64,000 nt of DNA, taken from NCBI RefSeq assembly GCF_000622405.1, contig NZ_JASF01000005.1:1240001-1304000 (forward strand). The letters run 5' to 3'. A program made the position numbers and the translations under genes. The notes beneath the pieces are model-generated. The model ran no database searches and was not told the origin of the DNA. It saw only the letters and a program-made list of their open reading frames with translations. Numbering within the stretch: position 1 is the first letter of the stretch; each line of letters begins with the position of its first letter. The stretch is from Sulfitobacter donghicola DSW-25 = KCTC 12864 = JCM 14565 (GTDB taxonomy: Bacteria; Pseudomonadota; Alphaproteobacteria; Rhodobacterales; Rhodobacteraceae). Shown piece by piece: positions 49,327-50,687 of this stretch.

Positions 49327-49944
49327 ATGACACGCACACACCTACCTGGCATCATTGCCATGGCCGCCATCGTTGTGGCCTCAAATATCCTTGTTCAATT
49401 TCTCTATGGAAACTGGCTGACGTGGGGGGCTTTCACCTATCCGCTCGCCTTTCTTGTGACTGACGTGATGAACCGCGTCTATGGCACCGCCGCTGCACGG
49501 CGCGTTGTGTTGGTTGGTTTTGTTGTGGGCGTTGTTTGCTCACTTATCGGGACCCAAATCATGGGTGAATTCGGCCCGCTGGTCACTGTTCGCATCGCCA
49601 TCGCCTCTGGCCTCGGGTTTCTTACCGCTCAACTGCTGGACGTTGGTATCTTTGCCCGCTTGCGCGATGGCGCATGGTGGAAAGCGCCACTTGTCTCAAC
49701 TTTGGTTGGTAGCACGGTTGATACTGTGATCTTCTTTTCCATCGCCTTTTCCAGCACGCTTTCCTTTATCCATCCAGCAACTGATGTGTCTTGGGCAAGT
49801 CAAATCATGCCGATCCTTGGCGCTGGCCCCATGGCCCCGCTGTGGGTATCGCTGGCGGTCGCGGATTGGGCTGTAAAGCTATCACTGGCGCTGCTTGCGC
49901 TGGTACCTTTCCGGTTCATCACAGCGCGCCTGCGCGCCGCATAA
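49327..49944 (+). CDS. yhhQ: Queuosine precursor (preQ0/preQ1) transporter
   Basis: A 205-residue permease of the YhhQ/VUT-1 family, with about six hydrophobic helices and the family features ASNILVQF, WGAFTYPLAFLVTDVMNRVYG, and VSTLVGSTVDTVIFFSIAF. It imports deazapurine precursors used to make queuosine in tRNA. The frame is open from a TTG at 49270, but the ATG at 49327 gives the normal N-terminus and leaves the preceding riboswitch-like element in the leader. Presence of this transporter suggests that the organism salvages precursor; synthesis genes are not in the window. Confidence 0.92.
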   Translation: MTRTHLPGIIAMAAIVVASNILVQFLYGNWLTWGAFTYPLAFLVTDVMNRVYGTAAARRVVLVGFVVGVVCSLIGTQIMGEFGPLVTVRIAIASGLGFLTAQLLDVGIFARLRDGAWWKAPLVSTLVGSTVDTVIFFSIAFSSTLSFIHPATDVSWASQIMPILGAGPMAPLWVSLAVADWAVKLSLALLALVPFRFITARLRAA

Positions 49945-50035
49945 AGAGGCAATCTGCTACCAAGGCTAAATTTCACCTCAAAAAACGCTTTGTGTTTTTG
50001 AAAACCTGTGCAACGCTTCAGGTGAGTTCAACAAA

Positions 50036-50174
50036 TGTAAAGGAGGTGATCTAGTGTCAAGAACGGTACTGGAGCGAGGTGTCGGAACAGCTTTGGAGGT
50101 CGTTTGTTAGGGCAGCCCCTAGCATCTGAAAACCAAAGTGGACTGTCGGTCTAACCGATCCCACCTCCTATACA
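50036..50174 (+). ncRNA. Structured RNA candidate with long terminal helix
   Basis: The two ends, TGTAAAGGAGGTG and CACCTCCTATACA, pair over 13 positions with a single mismatch, closing a 139-base element. Nested inside, in consistent order, are CGGT/ACCG, ACAG/CTGT, CTTTGG/CCAAAG and an apical TAGGG-CAGC-CCCTA hairpin, giving a rod-like fold. A GC hairpin follows directly at 50183. The 5' strand AAAGGAGGTGATC is the exact complement of the usual 16S rRNA 3' end. It is followed by a GTG at ideal spacing that opens an 18-codon frame, so the element may instead be a leader whose ribosome-binding site is hidden in the helix. The rod shape is 6S-like, but I do not recognise a known family. Confidence 0.5.
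50054..50110 (+). CDS. Possible 18-codon leader peptide inside the structured RNA
   Basis: A GTG start lies seven bases after AGGAGG, within an extended 13-base match to the anti-Shine-Dalgarno region, which is as strong a ribosome-binding site as exists. The frame encodes an 18-residue peptide ending in VVC and stops at a TAG. The same ribosome-binding site is base-paired to CACCTCCT about 115 bases downstream. Whether it is translated is unknown; the reading frame is too short for composition to help. Confidence 0.3.
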   Translation: MSRTVLERGVGTALEVVC

Positions 50175-50182
50175 ATTCGATT

Positions 50183-50210
50183 GGGCCGCTCTGTTTCAGG
50201 GCGGCCCTAT
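50183..50210 (+). terminator. GC-rich hairpin, probable terminator of the structured RNA
   Basis: A perfect 7-bp stem GGGCCGC / GCGGCCC with an 11-base loop, followed by TATT. It lies nine bases after the end of the RNA candidate and before the arfB start. The T-run is short, so termination may be partial, allowing read-through into arfB. Confidence 0.6.
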
Positions 50211-50267
50211 TCGCATCTTGGGGCAATGCCCTCTTCACCTTGGTCCGCTTGTCGCTATGTTAGGGCC

Positions 50268-50687
50268 ATGCTGTATATCAACGACACCATCACCATTCAG
50301 GACTGGGAACTGACCGAAAGCTTCATGCGCGCCTCAGGCCCGGGTGGGCAGAACGTCAATAAGGTGTCATCTGCTGTTGAGCTTCGGTTTGAGGCCGCGA
50401 CCTCTCCGTCGATACCCCTGCCGATCAAAAACAGGCTACGCCGCCTTGCGGGGCGTCGGTGGACCAACGAGGGCGCGCTGGTTTTGCAATGTGATGAAAC
50501 CCGCAGTCAGGCCCGCAACCGCGAAATCATCCGCGAACGCCTGAAAGAGTTGATCGAAAAGGCTGTTACCCCTCCCAAACGGCGGATCGCAACACGCCCA
50601 ACGCTAGGCTCGAAAAACCGCCGCCTAAAGGCCAAGAAAGTGCGTGGCGAGGTAAAAGCCATGCGCGGCAAAGTTGATCCAGACTAG
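50268..50687 (+). CDS. arfB: Alternative ribosome-rescue factor / peptidyl-tRNA hydrolase ArfB
   Basis: A 139-residue release-factor-like protein that frees ribosomes stalled at the end of non-stop messages. The catalytic GGQ is in ASGPGGQNVNKVSSAVELRF (about residues 25-44), with the RF domain-3 fold around it. The Lys/Arg-rich C-terminal tail (PPKRRIATRPTLGSKNRRLK and onward), which enters the empty mRNA channel, is complete. The frame opens 29 codons earlier, inside the upstream hairpin, but the ATG at 50268 gives the family's normal start. Its stop overlaps that of the convergent cobF by four bases (CTAG). Confidence 0.94.
   Translation: MLYINDTITIQDWELTESFMRASGPGGQNVNKVSSAVELRFEAATSPSIPLPIKNRLRRLAGRRWTNEGALVLQCDETRSQARNREIIRERLKELIEKAVTPPKRRIATRPTLGSKNRRLKAKKVRGEVKAMRGKVDPD

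Follow-up and report, generated by a model that had tools for sequence, protein, structure and literature searches.

What kinds of small RNA does this locus resemble? SgrS-SgrT is a small coding, dual-function sRNA. The closest described relative of the element reported here is CC2171 (RF01867), a family that Rfam types as "Gene; sRNA" and whose name we take to originate in a Caulobacter sRNA paper (Landt 2008). In the part of the Rfam 15 report available to us, RF01867 stands in the table of families improved with R-scape (PMC11701678), and the accessible portion of a Mesorhizobium huakuii study annotates one sRNA candidate as RF01867 (PMC5596092). A literature search, with many subscription papers outside its reach, found no paper on the function of CC2171; the other papers that use this word deal, by their titles, with different matters.

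The element lies between yhhQ and arfB in a stretch of 64,000 nucleotides from Sulfitobacter donghicola, the whole of which is called the window below (Table 1). A preliminary description, made from the letters of this DNA, had proposed a strongly paired RNA of about the size of 6S RNA, with a terminal helix that hides a ribosome-binding site and an 18-codon frame behind that site. It had also offered a leader of arfB and a sensor of ribosome availability as ideas. A check against the sequence bears out the described parts at their coordinates: TGTAAAGGAGGTG (50036-50048) and CACCTCCTATACA (50162-50174) form a helix with a single mismatch, 7 nt separate GGAGG (50042-50046) from the GTG at 50054, and the frame behind it has 18 codons.

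Table 1. Positions of the RNA element, its parts and its neighbours, counted from the first letter of the window
Feature	Position	Strand	Basis or remark
Whole RNA element as modelled by R1	50022..50210 (G000:C5:1290022-1290211)	+	ends are the ends of the model
Putative weak promoter-like region: TTTGTG 49989-49994, 17 nt, AACGCT 50012-50017	49989..50017	+	found by visual reading, at the register of the T-rich block enriched upstream in the window's branch
Extended Shine-Dalgarno AAAGGAGGTGATCTAG	50039..50054	+	complementarity to the 16S 3' end
18-codon frame VSRTVLERGVGTALEVVC, GTG start, TAG stop (50108-50110)	50054..50110	+	
Helix 1, 5' strand GGAGGT	50042..50047	+	partner 50163-50168
Helix 1, 3' strand ACCTCC, like the 16S anti-Shine-Dalgarno	50163..50168	+	
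Helix 2, hairpin with the start codon: 50050-50058 with 50065-50073	50050..50073	+	pairing across copies, window fold
Helix 3, 5' strand GTCGG	50081..50085	+	partner 50155-50159
Helix 3, 3' strand CCGAT	50155..50159	+	
Helix 4, 5' strand	50091..50096	+	partner 50133-50138
Helix 4, 3' strand	50133..50138	+	
Helix 5, apical hairpin with the stop codon inside; loop CAGC 50113-50116	50105..50124	+	
Terminator-like hairpin; weak T-run CCCTATTCG	50180..50210	+	
yhhQ, upstream neighbour	49327..49944	+	open reading frame, synteny; name as in the preliminary description
arfB, downstream neighbour, GGQ motif visible	50268..50687	+	open reading frame, synteny; name as in the preliminary description

Family membership and distribution

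To which RNA family does the element belong? At the curated gathering thresholds the window has no match in Rfam. With relaxed filters, the region 49940-50270 has RF01867 as its sole Rfam match, at 26.2 bits (E 7.5e-4) and below the curated threshold of 75 bits for that family; model positions 1-159 align with 50029-50208, the middle being largely unaligned, and broad many-genome runs under stricter filters gave no RF01867 match in this genome. We also built a covariance model of 192 positions (R1) from 30 Rhodobacteraceae copies, the window copy included. Other groups contributed 18 loci with the 20-base signature AAAGGAGGTGATCCAGTGTC; seven of them pass the RF01867 threshold, and R1 recovers six of these seven at full length and in the same places (E <=1.4e-4), while the seventh (L065) has E 0.05. 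Because the two models match in both directions, the window element is, on sequence comparison, of the same family as CC2171 and belongs to a divergent branch of it that lies below threshold. The two have in common the 5' block CAACAA..AAAGGAGGUGAUC.AGUGUC, the terminal GC hairpin and their size, and both the RF01867 5' signature and the terminal GC hairpin are present in the window element. They differ in the closing pairing, which is GGAGGT:ACCTCC plus GTCGG:CCGAY in the window's branch and CAUUGUC:GACAAUG in CC2171; the RF01867-type closing helix, in which codons 3-5 pair with the bases immediately 5' of the terminator, is absent from the window's branch. Comparison with Rfam, 6S above all, had been suggested at the outset. 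The 6S part came to nothing, and the weak RF01867 similarity that the comparison did bring out had been missed.

How widespread is the family? The window's genome has one full-length copy by blastn and four R1 matches, with the window copy among those listed. In 295 Rhodobacteraceae genomes, blastn (E 0.01) finds the element in 171. Although the Rhodobacterales branch falls under the current Rfam threshold, R1 (E 0.001) matches 273 of these genomes, 252 of them with E <1e-10; the other 21 should be read with caution, since a terminator hairpin by itself can score E 7e-4 with this model. In a class-wide set of 289 genomes, RF01867 matches occur in 60 (nine above the cut-off) and a start-codon-tolerant form of the signature in 54, its reversed control having no match among those listed. 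Phylum-wide, 53 of 349 genomes match, all within the 111 alphaproteobacterial genomes and none in the 238 others, a split that was counted by hand. A signature scan of named genomes, covering at least 119 stretches, returned, among the matches listed, two gammaproteobacterial contigs of metagenome-assembled genomes (MAGs) and one acidobacterial contig, which by their appearance seem to stand outside the family. In six genomes there are two to three RF01867 matches each, some of them weak. One genome (G306) carries two different family-like copies, L170 and L274 (MSHCHALNAASG.. and MSHGSAKGSVQF..), an indication that some lineages have paralogues.

The 20-base signature also stands in other surroundings. 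On L080 (933-952, -) and L106 (20-39, +), MAG contigs of the SAR92 cluster and Cellvibrionales, it is closely followed by CACTGGGAGCC..GGCTCCCTTTT and, by eye, a terminator-like hairpin, and CCAGTG could pair with CACTGG. Rfam at E 0.01 reports tRNAs alone on L080 and nothing on L106, and the elements may form a shorter analogue in their own right. On an Acidobacteriaceae contig (L146) the signature precedes a frame of 104 codons and looks like an ordinary gene start rather than a family member.

The small reading frame

Is the small frame kept among relatives? We read it in two sets of copies. The first comprises 90 blastn-found Rhodobacteraceae copies, that is, 30 loci plus 60 more picked by hand in rank order, with several skipped. 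The second is a non-redundant set of 128 copies from other groups, one copy of the window's branch (L125) included, in which a start triplet ATG, GTG, TTG or CTG was required (CTG was never found). It left out copies that resembled another by 85% or more, any with over three changes in the signature, those of the window's type, and L080, L106 and L146, the last, with its open frame of more than 100 codons, as an unrelated gene. All 90 Rhodobacteraceae copies start with GTG, and in 86 of them the frame is exactly 18 codons long, ending in TAG (45 copies), TAA (21) or TGA (20). The three longer frames have Cys, Cys and Pro at the stop position; TGG, which the apical pairing would permit there, is found in no readable copy. 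The standard deviation of frame length in this set is 1.0, compared with 17.5 and 18.9 in the other two frames, and in the 128 other copies it is 3.8, compared with 17.5 and 21.5. Every one of these 128 meets a stop at 14-35 codons in the small frame, and in the other two frames 18 and 22 copies run without a stop through the 260 bases read. Of 51 Rfam-model loci, 48 could be read (one of them a repeat; L237, L258 and L278 could not), with ATG as the start in 28, GTG in 18 and TTG in 2. A CTGG motif, present in 79 of the 128 copies, is in frame in 57 of them, a phase that supports translation and depends in part on related sequences. The 18-codon frame first pointed out in the window is thus kept across relatives in length, start and set of stops. 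The small frame looks real and under selection, and in our judgement it is very probably translated in most members of the family. The passages available to us of a paper on small open reading frames in Bradyrhizobium do not mention this RNA (PMC5082802).

Is it the peptide that is selected? Codon entropies were taken from 120 distinct frames of the window's branch, which were preselected for 18 codons, so that the stop counts of this set are not independent evidence. Over codons 13-18 the entropy at codon positions 1/2/3 is 1.44/1.43/1.14 bits; these values show the opposite of coding constraint, with no sign in the letters of protein-like selection on that part of the frame in the window's branch. 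Codons 2-6 give 0.59, 0.58 and 0.55 bits. The third position is highest in codons 7-12 (0.28, 0.25 and 0.45 bits) and in codon 2 (0.12, 0.12 and 1.70 bits), and such third-position variation would also be expected of a selected peptide start. Because frame length and start are kept and codons 13-18 are unconstrained, selection seems to act on translation and mostly not on the peptide.

Fold, covariation and the hidden ribosome-binding site

Do relatives keep the fold? The region 50020-50230 folds at -83.1 kcal/mol, compared with a mean of -65.0 kcal/mol after shuffling (z -4.2; none of 200 shuffles as low). RNAalifold gave a consensus fold for the 30 Rhodobacteraceae copies, the window copy being one of them. 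In this fold a standard pair fills 96.1% of pair cells, and 20 of the 46 pairs show two-sided change. Cells with two-sided change number 97, compared with 28.4 +/- 5.1 in shuffled alignments (0 of 500 as high). When the partner is shifted by 1-3 columns, pairing falls to 37-55%, a control that is biased toward the consensus fold because the fold was derived from the same 30 sequences. The helices differ in the support they receive. Helix 1 is paired in 99.4% of cells, with GGAGG paired in all 30 copies; it is nearly invariant and therefore without two-sided change, and its support comes from persistence and G-U changes. Helix 2 is paired in 100% of cells with one-sided changes only. Two-sided changes appear in two of the five pairs of helix 3, in all six of helix 4 and in five of the eight of the apical hairpin (helix 5). 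Compensatory change across relatives was the check set beforehand for a structured RNA with nested helices; the two-sided change is strong, and the proposal stands. Its 13-position terminal helix is present in the window but is not general in the alignment (A1), where the core is GGAGGT:ACCTCC.

The apical loop (50113-50116, within GGCARYCC) is unpaired yet strongly conserved in the window's branch, and a tertiary or intermolecular contact is possible there.

How firmly is the ribosome-binding site hidden? To open GGAGG, the window copy is predicted to need 10.1 kcal/mol; the median over the 90 Rhodobacteraceae copies is 6.4 kcal/mol, compared with 3.2 kcal/mol in 60 controls in which the rest of the sequence was shuffled base by base. 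In 125 other copies the median is 2.7 kcal/mol, not above that of 60 shuffled controls (3.1 kcal/mol). The hidden site of the preliminary description is thereby upheld for the window; because the opening cost is raised in the window's branch alone, hiding is shown for this branch only. To hiding throughout the family, nested folding gives no support outside the window's branch.

An alternative pairing was also considered for the window's branch, in which GAGGTG in codons 7-10 pairs with CACCTC and leaves the Shine-Dalgarno free. Its duplex energy is similar to that of the Shine-Dalgarno helix (means of -14.0 vs. -14.2 kcal/mol). Swapping the strands gave no cognate advantage, 93.7% of cells are paired vs. 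99.4% in the Shine-Dalgarno helix, and the breaks are uncompensated; the pairing was rejected. This test covered 85 of the 90 copies, the other five having no recognised motif 5' of the terminator, and used a wrong 3' stretch for five of the 85 (L184, L189, L205, L219 and L222).

What closes the RNA in the other branches? There codons 3-5 form the closing helix with the strand that leads into the terminator, typically as CAUUGUC:GACAAUG. Three of the 128 other copies had no terminator that could be found, and in the remaining 125 the mean cognate score of this helix is 6.10, a value that none of 5000 permutations reaches (maximum, 5.25); the permutations handle kinship by the 85% identity filter alone. 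The 65 copies without CATTG still score 5.22 on average (permutation maximum, 4.68). In one survey the terminator was misplaced in a few copies (e.g., L079, L095, L115 and L154). Many other-branch copies carry inside the frame a stretch that resembles the 16S 3' end (e.g., CCTGGATCNTCGCCTC); its pairing with the ribosome-binding site would cross the closing helix and therefore could be a switch or a pseudoknot. The best duplex between the site and the rest of the RNA has a mean of -16.2 kcal/mol in 74 other copies (shuffled, -12.5), -16.4 in 10 Bradyrhizobium copies (-12.7) and -16.0 in 124 copies of the window's branch (-12.9). Copies that singly beat all 60 of their own shuffles number 21 of 74, 0 of 10 and 11 of 124, respectively. 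This duplex test left out L080, L106, L146, repeats, frames longer than 30 codons and copies in which no terminator was located.

How the RNA might act, and how it compares

How might such an RNA work? Sequence comparison has shown a covarying nested fold with start and stop in fixed register, an extended 16S match and, in the window's branch, a drifting peptide end. Because frame length and start signal are kept and the peptide mostly is not, the RNA may act by being read. The reading we prefer, with chances that seem to us evenly balanced, is that of an independent short RNA gene of CC2171 type acting through its own translation, a ribosome-gated RNA; it is in part inferred. At rest, the ACCTCC strand would hold the Shine-Dalgarno shut and helix 2 would do so for the start codon, and a free 30S subunit would compete with the lock for the extended site. 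A ribosome elongating through the 18 codons would melt helices 2 to 5, and its termination inside the apical hairpin would leave an opened rod with an unpaired ACCTCC strand. An RNA with such a lock would respond to free 30S subunits or to the rate of initiation, and so would report, and perhaps buffer, initiation capacity. As for its output, our guess is that the freed strand, being like an anti-Shine-Dalgarno, might pair with other messages, or that the stability of the RNA might depend on ribosomes. Several observations count against the ribosome-gated model. Four of the 90 Rhodobacteraceae frames deviate in length (12, 19, 22 and 24 codons), and 10 Bradyrhizobium-type copies (L059, L064, L068, L069, L078, L087, L088, L101, L117 and L118) share a nearly invariant 14-codon frame, VSxxKRCHLAGIAR. 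Ribosome profiling in Caulobacter, in the part of the report accessible to us, found intergenic ncRNA regions untranslated, and two earlier predicted ncRNAs translated (PMC4117421). On the same side stand the raised opening cost being shown for the window's branch only, the few copies whose duplex singly beats all shuffles, the near-invariance of helix 1 and the third-position variation of codons 2 and 7-12. The wider form of the model, in which CC2171-type RNAs would be an alphaproteobacteria-wide class whose translation flips the fold around a decoy of the 16S 3' end and senses free 30S subunits, we put forward as tentative and rather doubtful.

Could the Shine-Dalgarno itself be the point of the RNA? 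The 16S 3' end of the window's genome reads CTGGATCACCTCCTTTCT at two places, and AAAGGAGGTGATCTAG can form 16 pairs with that end (CTGGATCACCTCCTTT), 15 of them Watson-Crick and one G-U. The complementary stretch reaches into the start codon, and an initiation complex cannot use complementarity that extends so far. Both points would suit a trans-acting structured RNA in which the extended Shine-Dalgarno acts on the 16S 3' end as decoy or antisense, with a role in 30S titration or rRNA maturation, and in which translation is incidental. However, GGTGGTC, GGTGCTT and GGTGCTC variants exist in Rhodobacteraceae, so full complementarity to 16S is dispensable there, and frame length, stop set and start set are kept in one frame only. 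We consider the decoy, and the titration or maturation role that would come with it, unlikely.

A dual-function RNA whose peptide is the product would account for the conserved frame, for the peptide that the Bradyrhizobium copies share, and for codons 6, 7 and 10-12, which are nearly fixed in the window's branch, as well as for the third-position variation of codons 2 and 7-12. Yet codons 13-18 are without coding bias, codons 4, 5 and 8 change their amino acid within the window's branch, helices 2 and 3 overlap the fixed codons, and the peptides differ from group to group. On this evidence a peptide product is improbable.

Is the RNA then part of the arfB message, as a cis-acting leader or attenuator? 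Its neighbours would suggest so in the window's branch: of 68 distinct loci spanning 1.5 kb or more, 65 have yhhQ upstream, in 59 arfB follows within 800 nt, and 56 combine the two (57, 52 and 49 of the 60 loci with sufficient flank on both sides). Against this, neither gene was found in 87 distinct loci of other groups, 72 of them sufficiently flanked on both sides, by tblastn with the window's proteins at E 1e-5, a search that distant homologues may escape; the link to arfB is therefore local, within the reach of this search. The count dropped L080, L106, L146, 62 loci under 1.5 kb and six repeats, and it is cleaner than an earlier neighbour clustering that used a crude gene caller. The ends of the element likewise speak for a unit of its own. 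A T-rich block (TTTTG/TTTGA-like) is enriched 42-38 nt before AACA in 120 sequences from upstream of the element in the window's branch, and 25 of 30 copies have TTTT after the terminal hairpin. In the window itself the promoter-like block and the terminator T-run are both weak, and mechanical scans of the window called no sigma-70 site and no terminator at the element; upstream of 82 other copies the sole position to stand out is a T at -41 (0.51 bits), which counts against the ribosome-gated model. The sole antiterminator candidate, an 11-nt match of the apical arm with the terminator arm, was rejected as uncompensated, apical changes being compensated within the apical hairpin and the terminator arm being nearly constant. 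The early idea of a leader for arfB, or of a sensor tied to it, is weakened by the confinement of the linkage to Rhodobacterales and by the upstream block and terminal hairpin of the window's branch, and we now rate an arfB leader as quite improbable; a general response to ribosome availability is possible. That the element is a 6S-like ligand of RNA polymerase, a likeness of size and rod shape only, has next to no chance of being right, as the window gives no match to the 6S model (RF00013), the frame is conserved, and the only 6S-like match of the genome lies elsewhere, at G000:C5:2569567-2569720 (37.4 bits, below the Rfam threshold of 46.4 bits), where this genome's probable 6S RNA is encoded.

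What follows for the family? Nearly every copy read of an RNA family filed as sRNA carries a short frame; selection keeps its phase and the place of its stop and, in the window's branch, acts little on the last part of the peptide. Should translation be the function, the ribosome-gated RNA would be a widespread regulator that ribosomes read directly. Set beside known systems, the window element has a rod and a similar size in common with 6S RNA but no match to that family. With leader-peptide attenuators it shares a strong ribosome-binding site, a short frame and a terminator-like hairpin, and it differs from them in having neither a constant downstream gene across groups nor a compensated antiterminator. 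SgrS-SgrT, SR1 and Pos19 of Rhodobacter sphaeroides are likewise short structured RNAs with a small frame, whereas the family of the window element has its frame in nearly all copies read while the peptide mostly differs.
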